Below are positions 7,239-23,253 of a stretch of 26,815 nt of DNA, piece by piece. The notes under the pieces are model-generated. The model saw only the letters and a list, made by a program, of their open reading frames with translations. It had not been told where the DNA came from and did no database searches. A program made the translations under genes and the position numbers. The stretch comes from a virus. Within the stretch, counting starts at the first letter, position 1. Each line of letters starts with the position of its first letter. The DNA lies in the IMG/VR virus record IMGVR_UViG_3300028610_000207, positions 1 to 26,815 of that record. One strand, written 5' to 3'.

Positions 7239-8267
7239 ATGAGTACACTAGCTTTAACAGGCAGGTCAAATCTATTTGACGTGCAGAAATTGAAAGCTCC
7301 GGACGGCGGGGCTGTACAGGTCACTAACACATTGATTGAGCGGAACGACCTTCTTTTCGATCTCCCGGCAATGCCCTCAAATGGCGGACTGTTTGTCACT
7401 GGTGCGAGAACTTCGGCCTTGCCAACATCTACACTGACTAATATCGGTGGTACATGGGGATCGTCTAAGAGCGAGCGGACACCGTTCGTTGAGGCACTTG
7501 CTACAACTCGCAGCAGGTTCCAGGTTCCCGAAGATGTTCTACAGACAGAGGGTCCGGAAGTTTCTCAGTTGCTTGTCAGTGAGGAAAAAGACGATCATAT
7601 CGAAGGTATGGGGCAGACATGGTCAAACCTTGTCATATCAGGTCCAGATGATCAAGACCCAGTACAGAACTCTATCGTTGGCCTTGCCAGTCGAGCACCT
7701 TATACATCGATTGATAGCGAGTTTACATATGATACGGGTGGCACAGGCGTTGACCTTAGAAGTTGCTGGCTGATGCAGCCTGGCCCAAGTACTGTTCACC
7801 TTGCTTATAACCCTAACCACCCTACACTCGGTGTGGAGATGCGGGAAATGGGCAGAGTATTCGTACAAGACCCGTCTGCTGCAAGTATTGACGCGGCTGA
7901 AGGTCGTTGGGATATTATCATTGAATTCATGCTTCAGCAGGGCTTTGTCATTCGCGATCAACGTGCGGTTAAACGTATCGCTAATGTCCCTGTCGGCGGA
8001 ACAACTACGCCTGGTGCTGATCTTATCAACAATGTAATCCGTGCGGCTAACAAACATAGTTCCACAATGTCTAAGACATGGATGCTGTATTGTGATGCTG
8101 ACGTTCATACACAGTTGATTCTCGGCGCTAACGATAAGTTGAAAGTTCACTCTTCTGATAAGAATATCTATCAGACTGAACTTCCTATGATCGGTCCAAA
8201 TATTATCATTCGTAGGCTTGATTCCCTGAACCATGCTATTGGTTCTGGTGAGACTCAGTTGACTTAA
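7239..8267 (+). CDS. Major capsid protein
   Basis: 342 residues, about the length of the major head proteins of podoviruses with Bbp17-like heads. Recognisable stretches are the N-terminal L-I-E-R-N-D-L-L-F-D-L-P-A-M (32-45), equivalent to the E-x-N-x-I-L-D-D-x-P helix, T-P-F-V-E-A-L-A-T (80-88), and a central block with G-G-T-G-V-D-L-R-S-C-W-L (about 167-178). The C-terminal domain contains G-F-V-I-R-D-Q-R-A-V-K-R-I-A-N-V (236-251), the most typical signature, describing an HK97-fold capsid protein. It builds the icosahedral shell around the scaffold. AGGAG (7227-7231) lies 7 bases before the ATG, inside an unstructured A/T-rich stretch, the best translation signal of the capsid module. The start codon is unambiguous. 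Confidence 0.93.
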   Translation: MSTLALTGRSNLFDVQKLKAPDGGAVQVTNTLIERNDLLFDLPAMPSNGGLFVTGARTSALPTSTLTNIGGTWGSSKSERTPFVEALATTRSRFQVPEDVLQTEGPEVSQLLVSEEKDDHIEGMGQTWSNLVISGPDDQDPVQNSIVGLASRAPYTSIDSEFTYDTGGTGVDLRSCWLMQPGPSTVHLAYNPNHPTLGVEMREMGRVFVQDPSAASIDAAEGRWDIIIEFMLQQGFVIRDQRAVKRIANVPVGGTTTPGADLINNVIRAANKHSSTMSKTWMLYCDADVHTQLILGANDKLKVHSSDKNIYQTELPMIGPNIIIRRLDSLNHAIGSGETQLT

Positions 8268-8276
8268 TTTGAGTCT
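8251..8276 (+). repeat. Inverted repeat across the capsid stop codon
   Basis: AGACTCA (8251-8257) and TGAGTCT (8270-8276) can form a 7-bp stem with a 12-base loop that contains the capsid gene stop (8265-8267), followed by AAATTTTAA. It is too AU-poor in its tail and too short for a confident terminator; it may protect the mRNA end or be chance. Confidence 0.3.
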
Positions 8277-8309
8277 AAATTTTAACTTGTTTAATTAAGG
8301 AGCATAATT

Positions 8310-8795
8310 ATGCTATTAGAAGAATTAGGTGTGCTGAGTACAGCACAAGATTTGACCGATGGGGCTGTTGATAGTGAAAACGTCATCGACCTCGGTACTA
8401 TCGCTAATGTTGGGTTTACTGACATGTGGCTTGCTATTGAAACAGAGACGAAAATAGGCGCCGCTGCTGGCACTACGTCGACGTATTCAATTGCTTTGGT
8501 AGTTGCATCAGAAACGACTCTGGATACTATCAGAACTGTTTTGACTATAGATATTGCTAATGACGTTGCTGATCCGCGTATCGCGGCTGTAAATCGCAAT
8601 ATTGCGGCATGTGAAGTCGGTCAGATGGTTGGAGAGGCAGCGGACGCTACTTATCGCTATATGGGTCTTATTGCGACTCTGGCTGACGGTAACGGCACTG
8701 CGACACTATCGATCAATGCGGCTATGTCACCGAGTAAACCCCGGACAAAAGACAATGTCCAAGTAATCCGTTCTAATGTGGGCTTGCCTACATAA
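8310..8795 (+). CDS. Capsid cement/decoration protein, Bbp16-like
   Basis: 161 residues directly after the capsid gene. The start M-L-L-E-E-L-G-V-L-S-T-A-Q-D-L and the following S-x-N-V-I-D-L-G (about 22-29) match the opening of Bbp16-type capsid cement proteins, whose usual form has L-S-D-A-Q-A, then S-T-N-V-I-D-L-G. The rest is beta-rich: W-L-A-I-E-T-E-T, T-S-T-Y-S-I-A-L-V-V-A-S-E-T, Y-R-Y-M-G-L-I. Cement proteins bind the outside of the mature shell and strengthen it after DNA packaging. AAGGAG (8297-8302) is 7 bases before the ATG. No signal peptide, in contrast to the next gene. A strong hairpin follows the stop. Confidence 0.8.
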   Translation: MLLEELGVLSTAQDLTDGAVDSENVIDLGTIANVGFTDMWLAIETETKIGAAAGTTSTYSIALVVASETTLDTIRTVLTIDIANDVADPRIAAVNRNIAACEVGQMVGEAADATYRYMGLIATLADGNGTATLSINAAMSPSKPRTKDNVQVIRSNVGLPT

Positions 8796-8801
8796 TGAAA
8801 T

Positions 8802-8840
8802 GGGCGGCCGGCTTAACCTTTCTCTGGCCGCCCTTTAATT
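8802..8840 (+). terminator. Terminator-like hairpin after the capsid module
   Basis: GGGCGGCC (8802-8809) pairs perfectly with GGCCGCCC (8826-8833) around a 16-base loop, and the downstream run is TTTAATTTACTTTT. It sits between the cement gene stop and the Shine-Dalgarno (AAGGAG, 8848-8853) of the next gene. With no promoter in between, it is more likely a partial terminator or mRNA-stabilising stem that keeps capsid and cement transcripts more abundant than the tail transcripts. Confidence 0.6.
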
Positions 8841-8860
8841 TACTTTTAAGGAGTAATCTA

Positions 8861-10837
8861 ATGAAGAAGTTTCTAATTGTTATATTGCTGTTCGCCTGCC
8901 TTGCCGGGACTGCCCAAGCTGCTCTTAGTTTTGGGCAGTCGTTTTACGACAAGAACGTACGAACGGCATTTTCTAAAACATCTAATGACCCATTACGTGG
9001 GTTTATCGGCGAAGTTGAAGGCATGTTGGACGGGACGGGAACATCGACCCTGATAACAAACCTTCTCTTTGATAATAGTATAACGTCTGATCCAACATCT
9101 ACGGAAGGTCGGCTATATTACAACACTACATCTAACCTGTTTAAATTCTACAATGGCACTTCCTGGGTTGATATTGAGGCCAATACAGGCGGTCTAAGTC
9201 TTGATGGCTCGTACAATCTTGGAAGCGACATTACTGTTGATAATGGTGTTATGACGTGGACAGCTACGGATGCGGCAGACAATGTGATTTTGACTTTTGT
9301 GCAGTCTGATACCGGAACTACTAAGGCTGTTACGCTGACTAATGCTGGAACCGGCAACACTATTGACATTCAGGGTCAATCTGGCGGAAACGATATTGAG
9401 GGAACTGACGACACTTGGGGCGTTACCGGAGCTGGCGTAGCAACCCTTGTCGGGCTTGTAACCAGTACCGGCGATGTTACTTTCACAGGTGCAGCAACCG
9501 ATATTGTCCACGATGCCTCTGCAAGCCAAATGGAGTTTAAGGATAGCTCTTTGCTCGTGTTTGGTACAAGTGATGATATTTCGCTTGCTTACGATGGCGC
9601 TGGTGACGATCTTAATATCTTATTTGATGATAAAGAGATTGCTTTCGGTGTCGATGGTGGCGGTGGTGATATTGTTATATTCTCAGAAACAGCAAGTTCT
9701 AAAGTCACATTCACGGAAGCTACTGATGATCTGCTATTTGTTGCCTATGATATTGATCTTGATGATAACTCTAATTTAGTTATCGGATCTGACGACGAAT
9801 GGGTAATTGACAATGCTTCTGAGGTACTAACTTTCTTGCCTTCTGACGCTACTGACGATTTTGTTATTGCACTTGGTGACGCAACGAATACCACAGATTT
9901 GAACATTTTTGGTGCAACAGCAAGTACAGTATCGTTTGATGCTTCCGGGGATCAAGTGACGTTTAATGCTTACGATGTTGCGCTTGGCGATTCAGATACG
10001 CTTGAATTTGGTGATTCTACCGATGGTATTATACAGTGGAATGCTTCGTTGTTAAAGATCGATGCGGTAACGACTACTGTTGGCACAGCTTTACAGATCG
10101 AAACAACCGATGGCGGAATTCATCTTAACGCAGACGGAGCGACGAATGGTGACATTCTGATTGACGCTGCAGACGTTCTGACTTTCACATCTGCTGATAC
10201 TAAAATCTTTGATGGTGCTGCCGCTGAAACATGGGTCGTTGAAGGTACTGCCGATGGTTTTGAAGCGACTGTTGTATTTACTGATCCCACTGCTAATGTA
10301 ACGTGGACATTCCCCACTGCTGCGACTGACACATTTGCTGTCATGGCCTCGACGCTTGTGACCAATGCCCCTGAAATAGCAAACTCTGTAACAGGTGGTA
10401 CTAATCAGCTTATTTTTGAAGGGTCTGTTGACGCTTTTGAGACTATCCTTACGGCAGAAGACGCAACCGCTGATGCAACTATTACTTTTGCTGACGATTC
10501 CGGTGATAATGTTTATATTGCCGAAGCTGGATCAACAACTAAGGATGGAACGAACGCTGCATTGCCACTAACCGATGCGTTGGTGCTTGGTACAAGTACG
10601 GCAGCTTCAGCATGGTCACTACCTGACGGTGAAGAAGGCCAGATATTGACCGTTTCTATTGTAACCGATGGAGGCGAGGCCACTATAACACCTGACACTG
10701 CAAATGCTTCGTGGGCTACAGTTGTTCTTACGGATGATATTGACACTGTAACATTCTTATTTATTGATGATGCGATAGGATGGATGATATTAGGTACTGC
10801 AAGTGATGGGACTAATATTGTTGCAGTAACACAGTAA
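8861..10837 (+). CDS. Secreted-type beta-rich fibre/appendage protein with signal peptide
   Basis: 658 residues from the ATG at 8861, chosen because AAGGAG is 7 bases upstream; an earlier in-frame ATG (8795) would translate through the terminator hairpin and has no ribosome site. Residues 1-20 form a Sec signal peptide: K2-K3, hydrophobic core, then A-Q-A before A21. The mature part is almost wholly beta-strand, rich in Asp, Thr, Ala and Gly, with almost no Lys. It contains E-G-R-L-Y-Y-N-T-T-S-N-L-F-K-F-Y-N-G (about 81-98), a phrase common in phage fibre N-domains, and two related repeats of about 40 residues near 458 and 517 (V-E-G-T-A-D-G-F-E-A-T and F-E-G-S-V-D-A-F-E-T-I, each followed by A-T-A/D-P-T-A and W-T-F or I-T-F). 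It is probably a head fibre or tail appendage on the virion surface. It is flanked by two terminator-like hairpins. An exported virion protein is unexpected. Confidence 0.75.
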   Translation: MKKFLIVILLFACLAGTAQAALSFGQSFYDKNVRTAFSKTSNDPLRGFIGEVEGMLDGTGTSTLITNLLFDNSITSDPTSTEGRLYYNTTSNLFKFYNGTSWVDIEANTGGLSLDGSYNLGSDITVDNGVMTWTATDAADNVILTFVQSDTGTTKAVTLTNAGTGNTIDIQGQSGGNDIEGTDDTWGVTGAGVATLVGLVTSTGDVTFTGAATDIVHDASASQMEFKDSSLLVFGTSDDISLAYDGAGDDLNILFDDKEIAFGVDGGGGDIVIFSETASSKVTFTEATDDLLFVAYDIDLDDNSNLVIGSDDEWVIDNASEVLTFLPSDATDDFVIALGDATNTTDLNIFGATASTVSFDASGDQVTFNAYDVALGDSDTLEFGDSTDGIIQWNASLLKIDAVTTTVGTALQIETTDGGIHLNADGATNGDILIDAADVLTFTSADTKIFDGAAAETWVVEGTADGFEATVVFTDPTANVTWTFPTAATDTFAVMASTLVTNAPEIANSVTGGTNQLIFEGSVDAFETILTAEDATADATITFADDSGDNVYIAEAGSTTKDGTNAALPLTDALVLGTSTAASAWSLPDGEEGQILTVSIVTDGGEATITPDTANASWATVVLTDDIDTVTFLFIDDAIGWMILGTASDGTNIVAVTQ

Positions 10838-10844
10838 TAATAAC

Positions 10845-10871
10845 GGGGCGGGCTTGGTCCCGCCTCATTTC
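10845..10871 (+). terminator. Terminator-like hairpin after the beta-rich gene
   Basis: GGGGCGGG (10845-10852) pairs with CCCGCCTC (10859-10866; one G-U) around a 6-base loop, followed by ATTTCTT. It sits between the stop codon and the next Shine-Dalgarno, the same architecture as the hairpin at 8802-8833. The U tract is short, so it may act as an attenuator rather than a full terminator. Confidence 0.55.
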
Positions 10872-10886
10872 TTAAGGAGTATTATC

Positions 10887-11294
10887 ATGGGACAAGGCGT
10901 AGGTAGAGACAATAAACGCTCAGTGTTCAGAATTCAAGTACCGCAGTTGGTGTTTCCTAATGGAGCCACTGGTGCTACGTTAACTCAGACAGAAGAAGTC
11001 AATATTGATGGCGCTGTAAAGCAAATAATGATCGGGTTAAATGACAATACTGGCAATGCGACTATAACATCTGTATCGCTCATTGATAAAGCCACAGGAT
11101 CAGTTCTATTCGTCAGTGACGGAGTGGCGGAGAATACAGATGCGGCTCCGATTGTTCAGCAGTTTATGACAGTTTCTGGAACTGATTTACCATTGCATAT
11201 ATTGAGTAATAAGACAATTACAGTTAGTGCTTTAATATCCGGCGATCCGGGCGCTTCAACTGGTTTGTGTGATATAACACTTATGGGAGACTAA
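10887..11294 (+). CDS. Hypothetical beta-rich virion protein, 135 aa
   Basis: 135 residues from the ATG at 10887, supported by AAGGAG (10874-10879) seven bases upstream; an in-frame ATG at 10854 lies inside the terminator hairpin and is rejected. The start MGQGVGRDNKRSVFRIQ is polar and shows no signal peptide. The rest reads as a small beta-sandwich (V-K-Q-I-M-I-G-L-N-D, T-I-T-S-V-S-L-I-D, then G-S-V-L-F-V-S-D-G). No family is recognised. Location after the beta-rich exported gene and before the tail adaptor suggests a minor capsid or tail component. It has a clean operon context: its stop is 3 bases before the next ATG. Confidence 0.65.
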   Translation: MGQGVGRDNKRSVFRIQVPQLVFPNGATGATLTQTEEVNIDGAVKQIMIGLNDNTGNATITSVSLIDKATGSVLFVSDGVAENTDAAPIVQQFMTVSGTDLPLHILSNKTITVSALISGDPGASTGLCDITLMGD

Positions 11295-11296
11295 AA

Positions 11297-12040
11297 ATGA
11301 CTACCGAAACGGATATTTGCAACATCTCACTTGGGAAGCTTGGCGGTGCAGGTGATGCTCTTAACGGCAACGCTTTCATATCGTCTATTGATGGATCGGA
11401 TAAAGTGTCGTCATGGTGCAAGCTCAACTTTCCACGAATAAGACGGAGAGTGATAAAAGACCTTGCGACAAGGAAAGCACCATTTCGTTCAACGGTAAGG
11501 TTTCTTGATTTAGGCACTGAATTAGATACTACGCCGGATATAGGACAATGGGAACATGCCTTTACTTTGCCAGGTGATTGCCTTGAGGTTGTGAGCCAAT
11601 TTGATGAAAACCTTATAGCCGCCAGGACACAATCAAGACCATACCAGGTTCGTGCTCAGGTAGAATATCAATGGGAAATGGTCGCAGACGCTACCGGCAA
11701 TGGCAAAATATTACTAACAAATACTTTAAGTAATACCGACAGAGACAGTGCGTTTATCGAAATTATTGTTGATACGCCAAATACAACATCTTTTTCAGAA
11801 GAAATGATCGACTGTATAGCAACATTGCTTGCGTCAGAAGTTGCTCCCGTTATCGGTAGGGATATGGAAGCCAGTAATGTAATGCTTGCTAAATATGAAC
11901 AGGTTGTAATGCCGAATGCACAGGCAGAGAACCAAAGAGGATTTAATAATACAGCGAGAAGTATACCTGATTGGGGTGGTGGACGTAGTAAAGTTCTCCC
12001 AACAAGGGAAAGATTCGCTCCAACCACAACTTCAACTTAA
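11297..12040 (+). CDS. Tail adaptor, T7 gp11-like (tail tubular protein A)
   Basis: 247 residues. The N-terminal T-D-I-C-N-I-S-L-G-K-L-G-G (5-17) is the diagnostic opening of the tail tubular protein A family (I-C-N-x-A-L-G-x-L-G). It is followed by a helix ending F-P-R-I-R-R-R-V-I-K-D-L-A (45-57), a W-E-H-A-F-T-L-P-G-D-C-L-E-V-V motif (about 85-99), equivalent to the family's Y-x-L-P-x-D-C-L, and a late helical block with I-A-T-L-L-A-S-E-V-A-P-V-I (175-187). Gp11 family proteins form the dodecameric ring under the portal that connects it to the tail nozzle. It has no signal peptide, unlike the gp12-like nozzle (14775) that it should contact. Its stop lies 10 bases before the tailspike ATG. 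Confidence 0.9.
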   Translation: MTTETDICNISLGKLGGAGDALNGNAFISSIDGSDKVSSWCKLNFPRIRRRVIKDLATRKAPFRSTVRFLDLGTELDTTPDIGQWEHAFTLPGDCLEVVSQFDENLIAARTQSRPYQVRAQVEYQWEMVADATGNGKILLTNTLSNTDRDSAFIEIIVDTPNTTSFSEEMIDCIATLLASEVAPVIGRDMEASNVMLAKYEQVVMPNAQAENQRGFNNTARSIPDWGGGRSKVLPTRERFAPTTTST

Positions 12041-12050
12041 GGATAAGAAA

Positions 12051-14735
12051 ATGAAAAATGTAATCTTTTTGATCGTATTGTTATTTACAATCTCCGCATT
12101 CGGTACGGTGTCTGATGGCGAAACGGTTCGACAGTCTTTTGCCCCGAACGGATCAACGACAACATTCACCTTTACCTTTGCTTGTAATTCAAGCGACGAT
12201 GTTTTGGTTTACGCTCCGTTGACTTCTACAGGCGATCCCATAGCTGCACTGGTCGAAGACACAGATTACACTATTGCACCGACTAGCAGCAGTTACCTTA
12301 ATGGCGGTGTTGTTACAATCAGTCCCGCTTTAGCCTCTACATTTACAGTTAAGATCGTACGACGGATTAAACAAAGTCAAGAGACTTCGTCAGGAGCAAT
12401 AACCGCAACATCCATTGTCGCAGCATTAGATAAACTTACAAGGCAGATACAGGATGCAGAGGATAGAAAAGACAGGTCATTACATTTACCTGAAAGCGAT
12501 AGTGTTTCTTTTGATATGACAATACCGAATTCAATCGACAGAGCTGGTAAGGTATTAAATTTTGATGGAAGCGGCAATGTTGGTGTGACTTCAGGTACAG
12601 ATACGTTTACCGTCGTTAATGGTGTCTATGATGATATTATCGCGGGTGACATTATCACAAAAGGCCCTATAATAGATGTTAGGGCTTTCGGGGCGTCTCC
12701 AACAGCGAGTGCCGCAGATAATGTGACAGCGTTTAACGCAGCTTTCGCCGCTGCGGTTGACGGAACTACTGTTTATGTGCCAGCAGGAACATATAGTATT
12801 GATGATGACCTTGTCACTTCAGGAGTAATCAACTTTAATCTGGTTGGGGCTGGTCAGAAAAAGACTATCATCAGCCAGACAAATGCGGCTGCAACTACTT
12901 TGAACTTTGGTGTTCACGGCAGAAGCACTATTAGTGATATTAACTTTTCAGGCGGTCTTATTGGTATCCAAATAAACAATGCAAATGTTAATCAGCAAAT
13001 AGTAGTTATACGAAACTGTTTCTTTAACAACCAAGTATCGAAATGTATCGAAACAGGAGGGCCAAATGGTACAGGTTCGGGTGCTAACTCTACATTCCTA
13101 CAAGTAAGTTCGTGTTTATTCACCCTTGAATCAGGCATGACATACGCAGTCTACGATAACCAGACAGATATAACAAATATAGAGGATTGCTGGGCTCAGA
13201 TGGGTGGAAGTTCTGCATTTTATAATGGCGGTGGAACAATGAGTCTCATTGACGTACATTGTTTTTCTTCCCCTGGATTCGATACAGAAGGTATTTGGGT
13301 CACAAATACTGCTACTGTGAATATTAGGGATTGTATCTTTGGCACAGAAAACGGCGCAGGCCAGACAGTACTAAGGAATTCTGCAACGTCAAGCGGAACG
13401 CACGTTACTATAACTGGATGCAGAATTGCTCCGAGAGATCAATACGCATTCAAATTTGTTAAATTGCCTAGTTATATAACTATAAAAAACAACTTCGGGT
13501 ACTCGTCTTTAGGTTCTGAGAGGAGTCTTGGCATCTGGATTGATTCTGACGCTGGATCGGTTAACAGATTATTAAGGGATAGAATAGTTATCGAGAATAA
13601 CGAGAATATACCGTACCGCATAGGTGATGATATATCAGGAGGGACAGCGAATGATGCTATATACTCAAACGCTCTTGCTATGCACAATAACGATAATAAG
13701 GGCGATCCATCAAGAGGGATTTTACTTGCCGATCATATTTCCAGTAAACTGTCAACAAGCGTTGCGACATCTACTGAAACAACAATGACAAAAGGAACGG
13801 CAACTTATGATTTTCTTGGTGGGCCTACTGTAACTGAATACGTAGCAACTGGAGATAACGCCCTATTCACATTAACTGATAGTTCTGCGATGGGTGGAGA
13901 CACCAGCAACGCTAATAATTATACGGCCGTATGGGACGTTGTCATAGAGGCCACTGTTCCGATTTACTGTAAGATATTAGCGGAGGGCAACGCTGGCGAG
14001 TTTACCCTTACAGATGGCCCTCACGTTCTTTGTGTGCCTTATAGAGAAGTTGATTCGCAGACTGCGCATACAATAGACATGCGTGGATTTGCTAGTGGAG
14101 ATAAATGTAGAATAGGAAGAATTCGTATCTTCCAGGGCAACAAGCTCGTTGATACTCCATTCACTATTTATGATGATGTTTCTACTAGTGTACCTCCACC
14201 TGGGCCAAGACTACGGTACGACCTTGGTGACAAGACTGTATTTTCTGATTATGCGGGAATAGGTAGTAGAGAATCTTTGGTCACTACTGCAGGGTCAAAC
14301 GGTGCAGAGGTTTTTGGTAATCCGGAAGCAGCGATCACAGATACTTTAGTAGTCACTGCTACGCAATTAAAGGCTTTGGCAGCAACACCGATAACGATTG
14401 TAGCTGCACCTGCCTCTGGGTATGTAACCGAATTTATATCTGCCGTACTTGTTTACGATTATCTTACGACTCCTTTTACACTTAATGGAGATAATGATAT
14501 TGCAATAAGATATACCAATGGAGCCGGAGCTATTGTATCGGACACTATAGATACGGCAGGTTTCATAGACCAAGCTAACGACGAGATAAGACTTGCAATG
14601 CCTATAGCCGGAACACTAGACCTTGTGCCAAGTGCAGTCCTTGTAATAGACAATATTGGTGGATCGGAATGGACTGCTGGACTTGGCGATTTAACAGTTA
14701 AAGTAACATACCGTACTCACTTAACAGGGCTATAA
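12051..14735 (+). CDS. Tailspike with T7-fibre-like N-terminus, beta-helix and signal peptide
   Basis: 894 residues from the ATG at 12051 (AAGGAT upstream), 10 bases after the previous stop; a longer reading frame from 11916 overlaps the adaptor gene and is rejected. Residues 1-18 are a Sec signal peptide (K2, hydrophobic core, S-A-F-G cleavage). Residues about 19-165 match the T7 gp17 N-terminal domain type (V-R-Q-S-F-x-P-N-G-S-T-T-T-F-T-F-T-F near the start, A-L-D-K-L-T-R-Q-I-Q-D near 128-138). Residues about 205-255 carry the pectate-lyase-3 opening (I-D-V-R-A-F-G-A, then A-F-N-A-A-F-A-A and V-Y-V-P-A-G-T-Y-S-I), followed by a right-handed beta-helix to about 540. A small beta domain ends the protein (about 760-894). 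It binds and probably degrades host surface polysaccharide. At least ten Cys are spread over the helix and C-terminal parts. Export is not expected for a T7-type spike. Confidence 0.85.
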   Translation: MKNVIFLIVLLFTISAFGTVSDGETVRQSFAPNGSTTTFTFTFACNSSDDVLVYAPLTSTGDPIAALVEDTDYTIAPTSSSYLNGGVVTISPALASTFTVKIVRRIKQSQETSSGAITATSIVAALDKLTRQIQDAEDRKDRSLHLPESDSVSFDMTIPNSIDRAGKVLNFDGSGNVGVTSGTDTFTVVNGVYDDIIAGDIITKGPIIDVRAFGASPTASAADNVTAFNAAFAAAVDGTTVYVPAGTYSIDDDLVTSGVINFNLVGAGQKKTIISQTNAAATTLNFGVHGRSTISDINFSGGLIGIQINNANVNQQIVVIRNCFFNNQVSKCIETGGPNGTGSGANSTFLQVSSCLFTLESGMTYAVYDNQTDITNIEDCWAQMGGSSAFYNGGGTMSLIDVHCFSSPGFDTEGIWVTNTATVNIRDCIFGTENGAGQTVLRNSATSSGTHVTITGCRIAPRDQYAFKFVKLPSYITIKNNFGYSSLGSERSLGIWIDSDAGSVNRLLRDRIVIENNENIPYRIGDDISGGTANDAIYSNALAMHNNDNKGDPSRGILLADHISSKLSTSVATSTETTMTKGTATYDFLGGPTVTEYVATGDNALFTLTDSSAMGGDTSNANNYTAVWDVVIEATVPIYCKILAEGNAGEFTLTDGPHVLCVPYREVDSQTAHTIDMRGFASGDKCRIGRIRIFQGNKLVDTPFTIYDDVSTSVPPPGPRLRYDLGDKTVFSDYAGIGSRESLVTTAGSNGAEVFGNPEAAITDTLVVTATQLKALAATPITIVAAPASGYVTEFISAVLVYDYLTTPFTLNGDNDIAIRYTNGAGAIVSDTIDTAGFIDQANDEIRLAMPIAGTLDLVPSAVLVIDNIGGSEWTAGLGDLTVKVTYRTHLTGL

Positions 14736-14774
14736 TGAATTCCAGACAGGAAACTCAAGTTTAGGACTAACGGA

Positions 14775-17063
14775 ATGCTTAAGAAATTGATTCTAATATT
14801 ACTTCTGGTTAGCAGTGCCTTTGGGTACAACCCGAGCATTACTTCTTTCAATGCTGGGCAAGTGTCTCCATTGATGGAGGCTCGTTCTGATTTCCAAAAG
14901 TATAACGCGTCAAGTCGCATACTGGAGAATATGTTCGTTACGGTTCAAGGTCCTGCTTTAAAGCGACCTGGCACAAAGTATATCGCCACTGCCAAAACAG
15001 GTACTCCGCGATTATTGCCTTTTGAGTTTTCTACGGATGATGCCTCCGTAGTAGAAACCGGTTCTTTCTATATGAGATTCTTTCAAGATGGCGGGCAGAT
15101 ACTTGACCCGATATTACCTGTTGAAATAGTCACAGTCTTCGCGGCGGACGAATTGGATGCTATTCAATTCACTCAGTTTGATAATCAGATGTATCTTGTT
15201 GATGGAACTGATGTCCCTCAAGTCCTATCCAGAACAAGTAATACTAACTGGACGATTGCAGATGTTGACTTTCAGACCGGGCCATTTTTACCAGAGAATG
15301 AAACAGCGACAACTATAACATCGTCTGCAACAACTGGATCGATCACGCTTACAGCAAGTTCAGGCATTTTTGAAACTACTACAGGTGCCAGCCATATCGG
15401 TTCTATCTGGCAGATTAACCAGGTCGGCGGTAATCCATCAATATCAAGTACGTTCTCAGCGAACGGAACGTCTATCGCTACTGCTCAATTTACCGGAGGG
15501 TACAGTTTTACAACTTCCGGTACGTGGGCCGGCACTGTAACGCTCCAAAGAAGCACAAACGGCGGTATATCCTGGCGATCAGCGCTTGCTCCATTGGTTG
15601 ATACGAATTTCGATAATCCCGCTGAAACCGAAGAGGATGGCGCAGTTTACCGAGCGGTAATGAGCAATTACACCAGCGGTACATGCACTTACAATATCAC
15701 AGTGACCGACAACACAAATAAGGGAGTCGTTAGAATTACGGCCGTTGCGAGTAGTACTTCAGCGACAGCGACGGTGTTGAATGATCTCGTGTCTACTAAA
15801 GCAACATCTACTTGGCGAGAAGGGTACTGGTCCGATTTTAGGGGTTGGCCTTTGTCGGTAGTTACCCATCAACAAAGACTTGTCTTTGGAGGCTCAAGAA
15901 CATTCCCACAAACGATATGGTTCGGTAAGACAGATCCGGATGATCCGGCTAATTTCTTTGAAGGTACACTGGATACCTCTTCCTTTACGGTAGCACTGCC
16001 CGGCCAGAATCCGATTAGGTGGTTACTGAGTCAAGATTACCTGTTGATTGGTACAAGCGGTTCATGCGGTAAGTATGGCGATCAGGGTAAGGCTGTAACG
16101 CCTACCTCCCCAAACTACCAAGAACAGACTCGTCACGGCGGAGCGGCCCTCAGGGCGGTTCTAGGCGGCGATGCAGTGGTATATGTGGAACGTGGGTCGA
16201 GGATAGTCCGCGAATTTGGATATTCTCTGCAATTTGACAAATATCTGTCTCCTGATCTTACGATTCTTTCCCCGGAGATTACCAAAAGCGGCATTACTGA
16301 TATAGCTTTCCAGTTAAGACCAGACCCGGTCTTATGGTCTGTTTTGGGTAATGGAAACATTGCAACCCTGACTTACGACAGAACTCAGTCGGTTGTTGCC
16401 TGGTCGCCACAAGTTACCGATGGCGATTTTGAAAGTGTGGCAATTATATCTGGTAGCAATGAAGACGAGGTTTGGGTGTCCGTCACTAGAGATAATGGGG
16501 TGTTTATCGAGCAGTTCCAGCCAAGGGACTGGGGAGACGACCAAGAAGACGCATGGTTCGTTGACAGCGGACTTGGTTACGATTCTACAGCCGCTACCAC
16601 ATTCACCGGCCTTGACCACTTAAACGGCTCTACGGTAGCCGTGTTTGCTGATGGGATTGTCCTTGAAAGTGAGGTTGTTTCCAACGGATCGATAACTATT
16701 GATGTCGCTTCGTCTGTAGTGGTTGCTGGGCTTCCATATACAGCTAAACTCGAAACGATGCCGATAAGGGCCGACCCGCAGGATTACACGCTTAATAAGA
16801 AGATTAAGGCGCTTTTTGTAGATTTCTATAAGACAGGAGATGTCGAGTTTGGAAATGGGTCCGATAGCGATCTTACGCCGGTTAACTTTGCCGATGGTGG
16901 TTCGTTTGTGGCTTTTCAGGAATTCCATACAAGCGAAGTTAAGCCGAAGCGGTTTGTCTGGGTTTATGGTGGAATGATTAAACAGACCGCGTATTTTGAG
17001 AGTAGCAAGCCTGTGCCTCTTGGTATCAGGGCAATTGTTCCGGATATGGAGATACGGCGATGA
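14775..17063 (+). CDS. Tail nozzle protein, T7 gp12-like (tail tubular protein B), with signal peptide
   Basis: 762 residues. After a 17-residue signal peptide (K3-K4, seven aliphatic residues, then S-S-A-F-G), the mature start matches the family opening: I-T-S-F-N-A-G-Q-V-S-P-L-M-E-A-R-S-D-F (about 21-39), then G-P-A-L-K-R-P-G-T-K-Y-I (about 55-66). A Ser/Thr-rich beta-sandwich insertion follows (about 175-330). The second half has the propeller-like block with G-S-C-G-K-Y-G, R-H-G-G-A-A-L-R-A and Y-V-E-R-G-S-R-I-V-R-E-F-G-Y, and the tail domain with G-L-P-Y-T-A-K-L-E-T (about 654-663). In T7 the hexameric gp12 is the tubular nozzle below gp11. A hydrophobic export-type N-terminus is not a feature of that family as I know it, and no alternative Met lies between it and the core. 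Upstream spacing contains only a weak AGGA. Overlaps the next gene by 4 bases. Confidence 0.92.
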   Translation: MLKKLILILLLVSSAFGYNPSITSFNAGQVSPLMEARSDFQKYNASSRILENMFVTVQGPALKRPGTKYIATAKTGTPRLLPFEFSTDDASVVETGSFYMRFFQDGGQILDPILPVEIVTVFAADELDAIQFTQFDNQMYLVDGTDVPQVLSRTSNTNWTIADVDFQTGPFLPENETATTITSSATTGSITLTASSGIFETTTGASHIGSIWQINQVGGNPSISSTFSANGTSIATAQFTGGYSFTTSGTWAGTVTLQRSTNGGISWRSALAPLVDTNFDNPAETEEDGAVYRAVMSNYTSGTCTYNITVTDNTNKGVVRITAVASSTSATATVLNDLVSTKATSTWREGYWSDFRGWPLSVVTHQQRLVFGGSRTFPQTIWFGKTDPDDPANFFEGTLDTSSFTVALPGQNPIRWLLSQDYLLIGTSGSCGKYGDQGKAVTPTSPNYQEQTRHGGAALRAVLGGDAVVYVERGSRIVREFGYSLQFDKYLSPDLTILSPEITKSGITDIAFQLRPDPVLWSVLGNGNIATLTYDRTQSVVAWSPQVTDGDFESVAIISGSNEDEVWVSVTRDNGVFIEQFQPRDWGDDQEDAWFVDSGLGYDSTAATTFTGLDHLNGSTVAVFADGIVLESEVVSNGSITIDVASSVVVAGLPYTAKLETMPIRADPQDYTLNKKIKALFVDFYKTGDVEFGNGSDSDLTPVNFADGGSFVAFQEFHTSEVKPKRFVWVYGGMIKQTAYFESSKPVPLGIRAIVPDMEIRR

Positions 17064-17500
17064 TTGAAACTAGAGAATACCAAACAGGCGATATGGACTA
17101 TGTAAGGCAGAATCCATTTCAGGACGAGGTCAAGAACTATCCTGAATTGATTATCCCGGCTAATACGTATACTTGCATATTTGAAGGTGAGATTGTCGCT
17201 GTTGGCGGGATTAAGATATTTCATGTCGGAGTTGGTGAAGCATGGATTGTGTTGACAAAGCAGTCTAAAAAGGATGGTATTTTCGGTCTTATTGCTTGCC
17301 GTGCGATTGAAAAGAAATTAAACGAATTGATTGTTGAGTTGAAAATGCGGAGAGTTGAAGCAAATGTAAGGGCTAACTTTACAGTTGCGATTAGATTCAC
17401 AGAGGCTATTGGCTTTAAATTTGACTGTGAACGAAAGAACTTCTTTCCGGGCGGTATATCTTCCATGCTCTATTCAAAGGTGAATGATGAATATATTTGA
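17060..17500 (+). CDS. T7 gp13-like internal virion protein A (GNAT-like fold)
   Basis: 146 residues, starting within the stop codon of the nozzle gene (ATGA). The pattern is that of the small GNAT-like proteins coded before the gp14-type gene in T7-like phages: an N-terminal Y-Q-T-G-D-M-D-Y-V segment, a strand pair around Y-T-C-I-F-E-G-E-I-V-A-V-G-G-I (38-52), W-I-V-L-T near residue 62-66, a long helix, and the late R-F-T-E-A-I-G-F-K-F-D motif (112-122). The usual acyl-CoA P-loop (Q/R-x-x-G-x-G/A) is not evident, so an acetyltransferase activity is doubtful and a structural or assembly role more likely. Overlaps the following gene by 17 bases. Confidence 0.75.
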   Translation: MIETREYQTGDMDYVRQNPFQDEVKNYPELIIPANTYTCIFEGEIVAVGGIKIFHVGVGEAWIVLTKQSKKDGIFGLIACRAIEKKLNELIVELKMRRVEANVRANFTVAIRFTEAIGFKFDCERKNFFPGGISSMLYSKVNDEYI

Positions 17501-18098
17501 TGAAATAATTGAAATTGAGAGTAATGGAAAATTATTCAAACTATCTGCATTCAGACGGTATGATCCTATTACCATTGCACTTATCGCTACTGGCGTAGGT
17601 ACTGGCATAAGCGTTCTTGGTACTCTGAAAGAAGGTAAGCAAGCCGAGGAAATAGGTAAAGCTCGTGCTGCTATTGATGTTCAGAATGCAGAAGCGGTGC
17701 GCGAAGCTAGTGTTGAAAAAGCGAGGATTGAGGGTGAACGAGGTAGGAGATTGAGAGCAACGCAAAAAGGGGCTGCCGCCGCTAGTGGGATAAAGATAAA
17801 CGTTGGCTCTCCTTTAGTTATTGAATCTGAAACAAGGGCTAATATCGCTAAGGATATAGGATTTGGATTGGAAGCTGGTAGGGTTGAATCTGCCGCTTTA
17901 TTGAGTAGTGCTGCTATCGAGCGCGCTACTGGAAAAGCAAAACGTAAGAAATCAAAGTTTGGTGCTTTGGCTCAAGGATTATTAGGTGTTGGCACTATCG
18001 CAGGTTTTGGTGCGAGATTGCCAGGTTCGCCTCCCGGTGCAGGGAGTCCTACTCAAACAGGGTTCCCAAGTGTTCCAGGAGGTGGTCAGTTTGCGTAA
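17484..18098 (+). CDS. T7 gp14-like internal virion (ejection) protein
   Basis: 204 residues. After a short acidic start, residues 28-48 are a hydrophobic Gly/Ile/Ala segment (P-I-T-I-A-L-I-A-T-G-V-G-T-G-I-S-V-L-G-T-L) followed by a charged Ala-rich helix (about 49-100), A-A-S-G-I-K-I-N-V-G-S-P and a second hydrophobic Gly-rich segment (160-176). A Pro/Gly tail ends the protein. This is the layout of gp14-type proteins, which sit in the virion core and insert into the host envelope during DNA ejection. Two adjacent ATGs (17484 or 17487) are possible, with AAGGTGA upstream. The last 8 bases of coding overlap the start of the next gene, whose Shine-Dalgarno lies inside this ORF. Confidence 0.82.
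   Translation: MMNIFDEIIEIESNGKLFKLSAFRRYDPITIALIATGVGTGISVLGTLKEGKQAEEIGKARAAIDVQNAEAVREASVEKARIEGERGRRLRATQKGAAAASGIKINVGSPLVIESETRANIAKDIGFGLEAGRVESAALLSSAAIERATGKAKRKKSKFGALAQGLLGVGTIAGFGARLPGSPPGAGSPTQTGFPSVPGGGQFA
18077..18093 (+). promoter_or_regulatory. Shine-Dalgarno and TTG start of the large fibre
   Basis: AGGAGG (18077-18082), spacer of 8 bases, TTG at 18091-18093. The signal lies inside the 3' end of the gp14-like gene. It fixes the start of a 1064-residue protein that default ATG-only calling would extend by 35 residues or place elsewhere. Confidence 0.65.
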
Positions 18099-21000
18099 GA
18101 TACTAATACTTATATTATTATGGACATCAATCGCTTACGGAAGCGGAAACTTCGAGATTTCAGATGGTGATGTAAGAGTGTTATCTCCTGATGGTTCTAG
18201 AGTTATTTCTCTTTTTGGTACTGGAACTGGGGAATTTGGACAGATAGTTGATAACGGGCTTACTGGTGTAAATGTTTATGCGGACGGAACCGGGTTATTA
18301 ACTTCAACTATTCCGTCAACAGGGACACTTGGATTTTGGACAAGGACAACTGGCCCTGCCTTGATAACTACCGCCGCAGCCGGTGATGGGGTGCTTACTA
18401 CAGGCACTATTACGGGTGGTACGTTTACTGATAGTACGGCTACACTTACGGGTGGTGATCTGACAAATCTTCAGACTTTATTGTTCGATACATCCGTAAC
18501 CCCAGCAAGCGAACCTGAGGGGCAAATATGGTGGAACGCAGATGATCACGTACTTAATATGTCGAGCGGGTTAGGTCCCGTCCAGCAAGTCGGCGAAGAA
18601 ATCTGGATGATAGCCAAAAACGAAACTGGCGTTCAGATAGACGACGGAAAAATTGTATTTATCGGCGGGGTTTCTAGTGGTAGACCTACCATCACATTAG
18701 CAAAAGCGGATAATCCTACTACCGCTGACAGGACAATTGGTTTCGCTACAATGGATATACCAGACAGCACATTGGGTATAGTTACAACATTCGGAGAGGT
18801 TAGGGACATTGATACTGTGAGTTGTTCTCCTGGTGATCAACTTTATTTATCTGCGACTTCAGCTGGTGGGTTTACTAATGTTCAACCAGAATACCCGAAT
18901 TATATAGTAAAGGTGGGAACCTGTGAGATAGCTGACGCTTCAGTTGGAATGGTTTTGGTTTCTGTTGTAGGTAGGGTTGAGGATATATTAGACAATGGTT
19001 GGAATGGTGGATTTCTTGAAAGTATTAATTTTACGGTATCGTCCGCAGGTGGGGTTATAACCGGTACACTTGAAAACAGTGACGGAGTGAGTGATTTAAC
19101 AGAAAATTTTTCTGACGGATTCACCGTCCTTGATGTTACGTCATCACCCGTTACAGTTGTATTAACCGCTGGGGCGGATGATAACCCGCAGGATAATTTA
19201 GTTTATATATTAAAGTCGGGTAAAACTACTCTTGTGACAAGTTCTGCATGGCCTTCTACGGAGCATATCAAAGTTGCTAATGTGACATTAAGGACAGCGG
19301 CAACAACTCTTACGGATGGGGCTTTGGTGAACCGAAACTGGAACGATCACATAGCGTCAAGTTCTAATTCTATGGGGCACATCCAACATATATCCGAGAA
19401 ACTAAGGAAATTTGAATCTCAATGGGATACAGGTGTTGAATCTTCTGTGATAGTAGCTAATAATAATCCCGCTATAGACACTGTCCATGTATCTACTACT
19501 TCTGGCGTTGTATATCAAGTTCACCCACAAGGGTTTCCAGCTTTATCTATGCCGACAGATGATATACATATTGCTAATAAATTTGGTGATGAATATTTCA
19601 CGACTACTAATCTTGCTACACAAACAGACTTATCAGACGGAACAGCTATAGGAAGTGCAAGTTTTAGTTTTGTAATTTGGGGCGTCCAGAATAGAAGTGG
19701 TACAACTTCTCATTTAATGTGTAATCTGCCGAGTGGAACATATGGCAAAAATTCACCCGAACTTGCTGTAGCAGATGCTTTCAATTTCACAAATTATACT
19801 ATTCCGAGAAATTTTCAAGGAACAGGATTCTTGATTGCTCGGCTAACCTTTATAATTGATACGCCCGGAACTACATGGACACTGCATGATAACGAAGACT
19901 TGCGAGGGAAGTTACCCAATGTAGCTGTCGGTGGTGGTGGTGCTGGCGGTTCAGGGATAACGACACTTCTCGGTTTAACAGATACGCCAGCTTCATTCGT
20001 AGCTAACGCACTCGCAAGGGTAAATGGGGCTGGTACGGCACTTGAATTCAGTAATGTGATAACAGGTAACTACAGCTGGACAGGGTCTTCAAATGCCGAT
20101 TGGAGCGACGAAGGCAAAACTATAACCCTTATAGGAAATGAGGCCGCAGCATTAGGTATACTGGGTAACTCTAGAAACTGGCTGAGTTTTAATACTCTAT
20201 CGAATAACTTACAGATAGGCAACGTAACAGATAACATATCTATTACATCTTTGGGCACAGGCCTAACCACTCTCGGCGGAAACTTACTCGTAGATGGTGG
20301 CGATATAGGGATTACAGGTGACACAGACCTAATCCAACTTGCTGTTGACGAAGTTACTGTTAATGGGGATTTGGGAGCGTCTGGAAGTTTAGATGTTGAC
20401 GGAACTGTAAGTATAGGAAGTGGGGCAACGCCTCTAATAACCACATTATTAACCGCTAGAGACGCTACCGATGACCCGATAGGAAATCTCTTAGGTCTTG
20501 ATTTCCTTTTGCAAACAACTGGAAATTTAGCTGCATTTGATATAACAGGGAACAATTCAGAATTGGGTTTTGGAAACTTAACCGCAACACCTACTGGATC
20601 AATGATTTCGTATAGAGCTAGGTTAGTTCTCGGTGGAGGCACAGCCCATACAATTCCAGAATACAGGGCTTTTTCATCCGCTATTTCCGGCACGTTTTCT
20701 ACTCTTAGCGTCACTGACACTTATAGCTATTACGCAGAAGACGCATCTATGGTAGCGTCCTCAGGTTCAATAACCAATCAATATGGCGTATACATAGAAG
20801 ATTTAGTGACAGGGACATCTTCTAATTGGTCTATCTTTTCTCTCGGGGGTAATATGGCTCACGTTGGAAACATGCGTATAGGCGATACAACAGTACCGAC
20901 AGATGCCTTAGAAGTAAATGGTGTATCAGTATTCGGCGATGGAGGCACAACAGATTACACCTCTATATCGGCAACGGGCATACTCGATTCAACAGCCGAC

Positions 21001-21285
21001 ACAGATACTTTAGGCGTAGGCGTTACTACTTTCGCGATAGGTTCTAACGTTATGACAATCACCGGTGATGGCGGCGGAAATACTATTGCAACGATTACAG
21101 GGGCGAGCAGGGCAACCATGCTTACACTTATATTTGTTGACGCGAATGTGATAATAACGGATGATAACACACATGCAGCAGACAGTGTTGATCTGTCAGC
21201 GGCTTTTACAAGTGCTGATGATACAACTTTACAGTTAATTTATGATGGTACAAGTTGGTACGAGACAAGCAGGAGTGTAAACTAA
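18091..21285 (+). CDS. Large secreted-type tail fibre (1064 aa), TTG start, signal peptide
   Basis: The start is TTG at 18091: AGGAGG (18077-18082) is 8 bases upstream, and the peptide M-R-K-I-L-I-L-I-L-L-W-T-S-I-A-Y-G is a complete Sec signal peptide cleaved after A-Y-G. The upstream ATG (17986) would give 105 bases of out-of-frame overlap with the gp14-like gene. Residues about 130-300 hold a fibre domain seen in many phages (E-G-Q-I-W-W-N-A-D-D-H-V-L-N-M, then V-G-E-E-I-W-M-I-A-K-N, Y-L-S-A-T-S-A-G-G). Residues near 623 carry L-L-G-L-T-D-T-P-A-S-F, a repeat unit common in fibre shafts. The end (about 1011-1064) is L-T-L-I-F-V-D-A-N-V-I-I-T... Y-D-G-T-S-W-Y-E-T-S-R, a widespread C-terminal fibre cap. 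Likely a receptor-binding fibre. Confidence 0.82.
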   Translation: MRKILILILLWTSIAYGSGNFEISDGDVRVLSPDGSRVISLFGTGTGEFGQIVDNGLTGVNVYADGTGLLTSTIPSTGTLGFWTRTTGPALITTAAAGDGVLTTGTITGGTFTDSTATLTGGDLTNLQTLLFDTSVTPASEPEGQIWWNADDHVLNMSSGLGPVQQVGEEIWMIAKNETGVQIDDGKIVFIGGVSSGRPTITLAKADNPTTADRTIGFATMDIPDSTLGIVTTFGEVRDIDTVSCSPGDQLYLSATSAGGFTNVQPEYPNYIVKVGTCEIADASVGMVLVSVVGRVEDILDNGWNGGFLESINFTVSSAGGVITGTLENSDGVSDLTENFSDGFTVLDVTSSPVTVVLTAGADDNPQDNLVYILKSGKTTLVTSSAWPSTEHIKVANVTLRTAATTLTDGALVNRNWNDHIASSSNSMGHIQHISEKLRKFESQWDTGVESSVIVANNNPAIDTVHVSTTSGVVYQVHPQGFPALSMPTDDIHIANKFGDEYFTTTNLATQTDLSDGTAIGSASFSFVIWGVQNRSGTTSHLMCNLPSGTYGKNSPELAVADAFNFTNYTIPRNFQGTGFLIARLTFIIDTPGTTWTLHDNEDLRGKLPNVAVGGGGAGGSGITTLLGLTDTPASFVANALARVNGAGTALEFSNVITGNYSWTGSSNADWSDEGKTITLIGNEAAALGILGNSRNWLSFNTLSNNLQIGNVTDNISITSLGTGLTTLGGNLLVDGGDIGITGDTDLIQLAVDEVTVNGDLGASGSLDVDGTVSIGSGATPLITTLLTARDATDDPIGNLLGLDFLLQTTGNLAAFDITGNNSELGFGNLTATPTGSMISYRARLVLGGGTAHTIPEYRAFSSAISGTFSTLSVTDTYSYYAEDASMVASSGSITNQYGVYIEDLVTGTSSNWSIFSLGGNMAHVGNMRIGDTTVPTDALEVNGVSVFGDGGTTDYTSISATGILDSTADTDTLGVGVTTFAIGSNVMTITGDGGGNTIATITGASRATMLTLIFVDANVIITDDNTHAADSVDLSAAFTSADDTTLQLIYDGTSWYETSRSVN

Positions 21286-21614
21286 TGAAAAAGATTCTGA
21301 TAATTCTAATAATGATGATGATTTTAGTAAGTCCTTTAAAAGCAGAGCCAGGGGACATCGAGATAACGATTGTCATTCCAGTAGCTTTTATTGATGACTT
21401 CCGTTCTTGGTTCTTGAGAGATAAGCCTATCCCGTTAATGGATAACCCTGCTTATCTTGATGACCCGAACCAACCTGCGATGGTAGATGCTTTTATGGAA
21501 AAAGTGTGGTTCAAAAAAGTAATACGTAAGTACGTGTTTAAAGTCTTAAAAAAAGGTAAAATTCTGTTGAACAAAGATGCAATCGTAGTAGATCCCAATA
21601 TGATAAAGGAATAA
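21285..21614 (+). CDS. Small secreted-type protein, 109 aa
   Basis: 109 residues starting in the stop codon of the fibre gene (TAATG) with an AGGAG site upstream. Residues 1-20 are a signal peptide (K2-K3, then I-L-I-I-L-I-M-M-M-I-L-V and L-K-A before E21). The mature part begins E-P-G-D-I-E-I-T-I-V-I-P-V-A-F and ends with a Lys-rich region (V-W-F-K-K-V-I-R-K-Y-V-F-K-V-L-K-K-G-K) and a short acidic tail. No Cys, no second membrane span and no lipobox (so not an o-spanin). Unknown family; between a fibre and an ejection protein it may be a tail-tip or assembly factor. Stop to next ATG is 1 base. Confidence 0.7.
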   Translation: MKKILIILIMMMILVSPLKAEPGDIEITIVIPVAFIDDFRSWFLRDKPIPLMDNPAYLDDPNQPAMVDAFMEKVWFKKVIRKYVFKVLKKGKILLNKDAIVVDPNMIKE

Positions 21615-21615
21615 C

Positions 21616-23253
21616 ATGTCAGTACAAATACCATTATCACAGAGAACTCAGTTGCCGCCGAGTAGGGTTGGTGCGGTTAAACCTCCATTCGATCTTGCCG
21701 ATCAGTCAGGTCAAAGAGCGTTCGGGCAGTCACTTGCAAAGTTTAGTGGTGATACGTTTAATCGTCTTGAACAAACTAGGGTTGCGAACGAAGAAGCTCA
21801 GTTCCAAGGGTTCGTTAATACCTCAATGAAAGAGTATGATGTATTCGTTGCCGGAAACCCAGGTGCGAGTTTCAAAGACTTGGAAAAAGAACGCGATAAG
21901 ATGCTTGCTCAAATAAGAAAGGCGGGTAACTCCGCTACAATGCCGAGGGCGCAACAGAATAATGCCCGGTGGTACACACAGAATCTTAACTCTATACGCC
22001 TGCAAACTCAAACTTCGATGGAGTCTATTAGAGCGAAGCAGGAATTGAGGGCGGCTGATGAAATAACTGAAGGTTATATAAATTCGTTTGATCGCGAGAG
22101 TCTTATATCTTTCACCAATCAGCAGGTACAGAGTGGCCTTTTGGAAGAGAATTTCGCAAAGGCAAGACTTGCTAATCAGTTAGATGTTATTAAGGCTGAG
22201 TCCAAGGTAGCTGTCCAGAACGTTTCTCAAATAGGTTTTGATGCGTGGCAGGCAACCGTAACTGAAGCTGACCCTGACGGAGATTTGAATGCTGCTTTAG
22301 ATGCCATAGAATTTATTGAGGGATTAACGGGGGATCAAAAGCAAAATGCTGAATCTACAGCGAAGACGAGGATAAACAACAGACGCGCAGAAGACAAATT
22401 ACAAGCAGAACAGAATGAGGTTGAGTCAGTTGAGCAAATAAAAGGAAAGCTTAATAAGGGCGAATTCGACGGAATGACAGTTTTTATAAACACGCTTCCC
22501 CTTTCTGAGACAGAAAAGAATAATCAAATTAAGACAGCTAATAGTTATATCGCTTCAGTTAATAATGCGAATACTAAAAGTAATTTTGTAACATCTGACA
22601 ACACTAACATCAAGATAGATCGCTTGATAAGAAGTGTTCGTTCTGGAGAAGTTTCTTATGATGACGCTATAGATGAATATCAAAAGTTCTCCAAAGACGT
22701 TAAAGCTTCTGAGGGGCGAACCAACTTAGACAACATCAGTACAGCATCAAATCAATCTCAGAGTGCAGACGACAGAAGAAAGAACTCTAAATACACAACA
22801 AGAAACCGACAACTCAGGGATTCGATTGAGAGACAGACAAGTTTGCTTTTGGAGCCAGACGAAATAGACGAAGTACTTGTTGACCTTGCGAATAAAGCAG
22901 AACTTGAATTAGGCGATAAATTTGATGGAATAGACTACGAAGATGAGGAACTGACAGCAGAAGTTGATAGGTTGATGCGTAAGTACACTCTATCTGAAGC
23001 TCAAATGACGAGAGCAGTGACCGCACGGCAACTCAGGCTCGCTGAGAGCTTCGAGGACCAACAAAAGGCCATCACCGAGTCCATAAGAAAGCTAAACGAA
23101 GAAGGCGATAGGGAGGGAGCCAAGAGGATTATGGAAGAAGCGATTTCGTTAGGTTTTGACCTAACCGCCGAAGGTAAAGCAAGGCCAACACAAAAGAAAG
23201 CCAAGGAGAGCGGGATTAAAAGAATACTTAACAGATTAATAGGACGAGACTAA
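21616..23253 (+). CDS. Internal virion protein, T7 gp15-like (putative ejection protein)
   Basis: 545 residues, almost entirely alpha-helical and polar, with Gln, Asn, Glu and Lys throughout and coiled-coil-like spacing (for example 28-80, 95-160 and 245-275). It begins with a Pro-rich disordered part (P-L-S-Q-R-T-Q-L-P-P-S-R-V, 5-18). Position between the gp14-like gene (with two exported genes inserted) and the giant last gene equals T7 gp15. No signal peptide, no enzyme motif. The basic C-terminal region (I-K-R-I-L-N-R-L-I) is typical of such helical tails. In T7 these proteins are ejected and help form the channel across the cell envelope. AAAGGAA is upstream; the stop overlaps the next ATG (TAATG). 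Confidence 0.72.
   Translation: MSVQIPLSQRTQLPPSRVGAVKPPFDLADQSGQRAFGQSLAKFSGDTFNRLEQTRVANEEAQFQGFVNTSMKEYDVFVAGNPGASFKDLEKERDKMLAQIRKAGNSATMPRAQQNNARWYTQNLNSIRLQTQTSMESIRAKQELRAADEITEGYINSFDRESLISFTNQQVQSGLLEENFAKARLANQLDVIKAESKVAVQNVSQIGFDAWQATVTEADPDGDLNAALDAIEFIEGLTGDQKQNAESTAKTRINNRRAEDKLQAEQNEVESVEQIKGKLNKGEFDGMTVFINTLPLSETEKNNQIKTANSYIASVNNANTKSNFVTSDNTNIKIDRLIRSVRSGEVSYDDAIDEYQKFSKDVKASEGRTNLDNISTASNQSQSADDRRKNSKYTTRNRQLRDSIERQTSLLLEPDEIDEVLVDLANKAELELGDKFDGIDYEDEELTAEVDRLMRKYTLSEAQMTRAVTARQLRLAESFEDQQKAITESIRKLNEEGDREGAKRIMEEAISLGFDLTAEGKARPTQKKAKESGIKRILNRLIGRD

Follow-up and report, generated by a model that had tools for sequence, protein, structure and literature searches.

Sec-type signal peptides on external appendage genes, including tail nozzle and spike, of T7-like podophages

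In the textbook account of morphogenesis, tailed phages are assembled entirely in the cytoplasm. Why, then, would outer virion parts of a podophage begin with signals for export? The window, by which we mean the whole 26.8 kb virus record analysed here, covers the late half of an uncultured T7-like podophage. It encodes two large ejection-type proteins in addition to terminase, portal, capsid, cement, adaptor, nozzle and gp14-like proteins, and five of its genes start with N-termini of the Sec type (Table 1).

Signal-bearing and signal-free genes of the window

N-termini were rated with a scorer written for this analysis, which evaluates the n-, h- and c-regions. In calibration, 24 known Sec signals scored 9.2–14.9, with the cleavage site placed correctly in 20, and among 33 cytosolic proteins of E. 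coli all but one scored 4.9 or less (the exception, 9.0); some multi-pass membrane proteins also score high (NhaA, 12.6). The five genes, which had been singled out from sequence alone as starting with signal peptides, scored 12.4–16.0, against −13.6 to 2.8 for the remaining 16 genes of the window, and each has its own ribosome-binding site. These N-termini are therefore real. None of the 290 in-frame internal starts in the window reached 8, and only one of the 563 six-frame open starts scored 12 or more, this being the in-frame neighbour of the 18091 start. By sequence, the five match what is required of Sec and signal peptidase I substrates, having a positive n-region, an h-region of 7–16 residues and small residues at −3 and −1.

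Table 1. Virion-module features of the window. Arrows mark predicted cleavage sites; clade counts refer to the 13 closest contigs.
Feature	Position	Strand	Signal peptide	Ribosome-binding site	Score	Remarks
Portal, head part	2870..4675	+	none		−9.0	PF12236
Major capsid protein	7239..8267	+	none			PF20911, phrog_212; no signal in 12/12 clade orthologues
Cement protein by position	8310..8795	+	none		−1.0	same slot as in Carin1
S8861, fibre-like appendage gene	8861..10837	+	8861-8920, MKKFLIVILLFACLAGTAQA↓ALSF	AAGGAG	16.0	
gp11-like adaptor, last head-side part	11297..12040	+	none			phrog_394; no signal in 13/13 in clade
Tailspike, T7-gp17-type anchor and pectate-lyase-like domain	12051..14735	+	12051-12104, MKNVIFLIVLLFTISAFG↓TVSDG	AGGA	13.3	PF12708
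Tail nozzle (gp12-like)	14775..17063	+	14775-14825, MLKKLILILLLVSSAFG↓YNPS	AGGA	13.0	
Acetyltransferase-like gene	17060					identity by place; the Greip annotation carries the same name
gp14-like internal virion protein	17484..18098	+	none			phrog_418; 11/11 clade scores <10
S18091, long fibre-like protein	18091..21285	+	18091-18141, (L/M)RKILILILLWTSIAYG↓SGNFE	AGGAGGT	12.4	TTG start
Small protein	21285..21614	+	21285-21344, MKKILIILIMMMILVSPLKA↓EPGD	AGGAG	14.6	
gp15-like slot	21616..23253	+	none			no signal in 9/9 in clade
Giant gp16-like ejection protein	23253..26815	+	none		−8.0	phrog_28077; runs off the contig

Two of the signal-bearing products can be assigned by homology. The nozzle matches phrog_376 (E = 2.7e-160, residues 19–760) and, over its length, PDB 8ck1_A, a tail nozzle (E = 8.9e-165); its gene lies between the adaptor and the internal virion proteins, as in the nozzle family. 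The anchor of the tailspike matches phrog_1640 (E = 6.3e-17, residues 6–120 on profile positions 6–119) and also the tail fibre chain that accompanies PDB 8ck1. Pfam PF03906 was found in just two of the 13 aligned anchor members and is absent from the window spike. The longest open reading frame across 12051 begins at 11916, which is a false start.

S8861 sits between cement and connector, a slot that in Cobetia phage Carin1 holds the head spike base, and by analogy its product may be a head fibre. A low-confidence model of it has repetitive beta content; for S8861 and S18091, AlphaFold gave models of too low a quality to use in a fold search (mean pLDDT 44.6 and 31.2). The TTG start of S18091 overlaps the 3' end of the preceding gene. 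Homologues of the 21285 gene carry a signal in contig L002, lack one in L005 and score 9.5 in L055. The sequence-only reading had spoken of five virion genes and of outer tail parts. All five signals stand, but the 21285 product is only a putative virion protein; 'external appendages' is a better term than 'outer tail parts', perhaps including head fibres encoded in the S8861 slot.

Among the signal-free proteins, gp11 gave no match in a PDB search. The giant ejection protein shows weak, sub-threshold Pfam matches to Cas6 and CdiA_C, which are most likely due to chance.

Signals as additions to older proteins

The closest clade comprises 13 contigs, namely the window and contigs found with its nozzle as query. 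All 13 nozzles and all eight spikes start with the same type of N-terminus, in agreement with what the signals of the window would lead one to look for in related phages. The same is true of every S8861 orthologue with a readable start in related contigs and of every S18091 slot gene with a readable start in the clade (signals in L002, L003, L004, L005, L012 and L055). By automatic count, 36 of 44 members of the slot families carry signals; of the eight misses, six come from truncated genes or from starts that the automatic calling got wrong, and the other two are the homologues of 21285 in L005 and L055. Signals were found in 29 of 49 other appendage-block genes and in 16 of 227 genes elsewhere, several of the latter being fibres or membrane/lysis genes. 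Core virion families have none (0/125, automatic count), so the reported absence of signals from head and core genes extends from the window, where the maximum is 2.8, to the clade. Wrong starts, chance hydrophobic ends or scorer error are a highly improbable source of this pattern. The scorer is our own and membrane proteins can score high, but the chance rate is near zero, and the signals recur in 23 separate contigs, mostly with their own ribosome-binding sites. Together with the count for core genes, this essentially refutes an artefact.

The signals appear to have been added to pre-existing proteins. In the nozzle, the signal amounts to 17 extra residues, and the phrog_376 match begins only at residue 19. 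Signal-free nozzles begin at the mature domain in 25 bacterial or metagenome-assembled (MAG) contigs and in five INPHARED records; the former come from a prophage search of genome_contigs that found 26 nozzle loci, 25 of them with a readable N-terminus and all of these without a signal. Residue 1 of the mature spike (after A-F-G) aligns with the residue following the initiator methionine of signal-free fibre anchors (MTVS, MTISS), and the mature numbering agrees with phrog_1640. As signal-free relatives of both proteins thus start at, or a few residues from, the predicted cleavage point, the signal is an extra segment, and cutting it off would give nozzle and spike back their ancestral N-terminus.

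The −3/−1 rule is obeyed at alignment-anchored sites by all eight spikes and by 11 of the 13 nozzles; in the remaining two nozzles a fitting site lies a few residues earlier. Identity to the window is 41–65% in the signal and 53–78% in the mature nozzle, and charge, hydrophobic core and −3/−1 residues are kept despite the drift of letters, so it is the properties of the signal that are conserved and not its letters.

In L005, two neighbouring genes (9932-10273 and 10273-12345) share the nozzle between them, the break point being the place of a large insertion, LamG-like by sequence, in other relatives. Both pieces carry their own signal, the second having gained MKKIILLIILFLSAVSFA. A second signal would be expected if each chain is exported; an N-terminal device retained in the virion would not need one. 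Directly before the split nozzle, L005 has a second, diverged gene (7338-9935) with a signal and a nozzle-like N-terminus. Nozzles exceeding 1,000 residues, which carry a large insertion around residue 115, occur in L007 (8210-11977), L008 (7526-11962) and L011 (8219-11974), where the insertion is LamG-like by sequence, and further ones in L077, L081, L101 and L118.

These observations bear on two other explanations. Cleavage is a prediction, and the hydrophobic N-termini might instead stay uncleaved in the virion, for example to touch the host membrane at infection or to seal the nozzle. We regard this as quite improbable: the −3/−1 sites are conserved at aligned positions, the h-regions are short, the add-on of the spike sits on the particle-binding end, where signal-free homologues begin, and the second signal of L005 lies in the middle of a split nozzle. 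Alternatively, the exported proteins might have another function beyond the cytoplasm (as free depolymerase or adhesin, or in receptor blocking), with virion copies made from signal-less internal starts. The lectin or lyase-like domains on spikes and fibres would suit such a role, but an internal start at the cleavage point, equipped with a ribosome-binding site, is not conserved, being present in none of seven spikes, one of ten nozzles and one of five S18091 genes. The sole nozzle case lies 12 codons downstream of the cleavage point, within conserved sequence, and the nozzle has no obvious free role, which makes this explanation distinctly unlikely. Sec export followed by signal-peptidase cleavage is, on sequence grounds, strongly favoured as the best reading of these N-termini.

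Wider spread of the signals

A profile scan retrieved 78 further nozzle loci, of which 10 have a nozzle signal, 65 have none and three could not be judged. The ten added signal-bearing nozzles have 31–48% identity. Their loci have 30 signal-bearing genes among 119, chiefly the nozzle gene and those lying between cement and adaptor, whereas loci whose nozzle has no signal have two among 606. A tree built from 75 nozzle sequences, each cut to start just ahead of the conserved mature domain, has five changes of signal state, at least three of them forced by well-supported branches; gain and loss are not separable by count. L140 lies far from the rest. The borderline nozzle of L013 (710-3139, GTG start, score 8.1), counted as having no signal, is sister to that of signal-bearing L079 and may be a true case.

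In some loci the signals are found off the nozzle. L014 has them on spike and fibres, L076 on spike or fibre-slot genes only. In vir555 (L019, BK063671), whose recorded host is Methanomicrobiales, Sec-type or membrane N-termini surround the tail module (including 13872-14384 and 26880-31897), and nozzle and fibre anchor have no signal. These three loci suggest that signals were acquired by fibres first and by the nozzle later.

A proposed assembly route and its relation to known systems

The suggestion that the outer parts may be exported, or cleaved by host signal peptidase, finds good support in the evolution of these genes, namely in drifting letters, −3/−1 residues, a restored N-terminus, the split nozzle and the co-occurrence of signals. 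The border between signal-free and signal-bearing products runs between gp11 adaptor and nozzle, that is, at the head–tail joint. The simplest model for such a border keeps heads in the cytoplasm, places the external parts in the periplasm and lets the two join at lysis, and we put the probability of this two-compartment assembly at about 0.6. Portal, scaffold, capsid, cement, gp11 adaptor, internal ejection proteins and DNA would form heads in the cytoplasm. Nozzle, tailspike and fibres, made with cleavable Sec signals, would cross the inner membrane unfolded, have their signals removed by host signal peptidase I and fold as oligomers in the periplasm. Once the inner membrane fails at lysis, finished heads would meet the exported parts, and nozzle and spikes would then dock onto adaptor-closed heads. 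In vitro, P22 spikes and T7 tail parts can join finished heads, which makes late joining plausible. A two-membrane host and joining at lysis are the points that we infer less firmly.

The sequence-only reading had also envisaged assembly at or across the inner membrane. Exported nozzle and fibres would then stay near the membrane before lysis, capsids would dock on its cytoplasmic face and the tail would be built across it. Although this predicts the same signals and the same head/tail boundary, cleavage would leave no membrane anchor, and no sequence feature suggestive of docking was seen in gp11 or portal; we consider it unlikely. Joining at lysis, which fits equally well or better, is the probable course. 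A broader proposition, to which we give even odds, is that the head–tail joint is a membrane boundary: heads are cytoplasmic, tails fold outside, and particles become infectious only once the membrane opens, the arrangement having more than one origin and a stepwise history of fibres, then nozzle. As a counterpoint, the signal-free nozzle of L014 implies that the boundary between exported and non-exported parts is not fixed.

Filamentous phages have virion proteins with cleaved Sec signals (M13 pIII and pVIII), but their particles are helical and extruded, without tail or lysis, and share no sequence relation. Secretion of that type (small helical coat, extrusion ATPase, secretin) was rejected for the window, whose genes instead encode terminase, portal, a tailed-phage capsid and a podophage tail. 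The P22 tailspike joins heads outside cells, and spikes can be the last addition to finished heads; these spikes, however, are cytoplasmic and have no signal peptide. Carin1 (PQ119497), of the nozzle family of PDB 8ck1_A, shares gene order, a homologous nozzle and a homologous fibre anchor with the window but has a signal peptide on none of the 17 virion-module genes examined. T7-like podophages, including pelagiphages such as Greip EXVC021P, share capsid, adaptor, nozzle, internal virion proteins and the gp17-type fibre anchor, whereas their tail proteins start at the mature domain. Carin1, Greip, Vibrio 1.182 and ctVRi840 all have virion modules free of signals.

In the open-access literature searched, phage signal peptides are described for endolysins and the Lom protein, and none was found for the nozzle or spike of a tailed phage. 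Some phage endolysins, such as Lys44, carry a signal peptide or a SAR domain and pass through Sec (PMC6116005), but these are lysis enzymes and not virion parts. The parts are thus of known kinds, and secretion of the outer parts of a tailed phage is new as far as that literature shows. If tails are secreted, a joining step outside the cytoplasm would be required, Sec would be a host factor that the phage cannot do without late in infection, and the timing of lysis would become part of assembly. Signals on nozzle or spike offer a simple sequence test for finding such phages, whose virion genes may be misannotated as host secreted proteins.

The signals have a median length of 19 residues and a median h-core of 11. 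A Tat type was rejected, with a twin arginine in just one case among the signal-bearing genes, as was a lipoprotein type, with no lipobox among those longer than 150 residues. Many periplasmic proteins are poor in cysteine, and odd cysteine counts are uncommon in them. Here cysteine makes up 0.62% of exported and core proteins alike, and counts are odd in 31 of the 46 mature chains having any; as the mature chains are not cysteine-poor and odd counts are common, oxidative folding offers no apparent reason for export, which counts against the model. Periplasmic glycosylation was likewise discarded, the Bacteroidota and Campylobacter motifs not being enriched; the plain N-x-S/T sequon shows a weak excess (z = 2.3). 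Among 62 proteins of relatives scanned against Pfam, most of them non-virion, there was no phage-encoded export chaperone or signal peptidase.

Lysozyme-type endolysins and lipoprotein-like signals in relatives suggest that the host is a bacterium. In two relatives (L060 4585-5106 and L054 8613-9113) the lysozyme-type endolysin is SAR-like, with an N-terminal hydrophobic segment. SAR endolysins are often paired with small-hole holins, and head passage before rupture would be harder in such phages, a point against the model in its simple form; joining would then occur at rupture and not through large holin holes.
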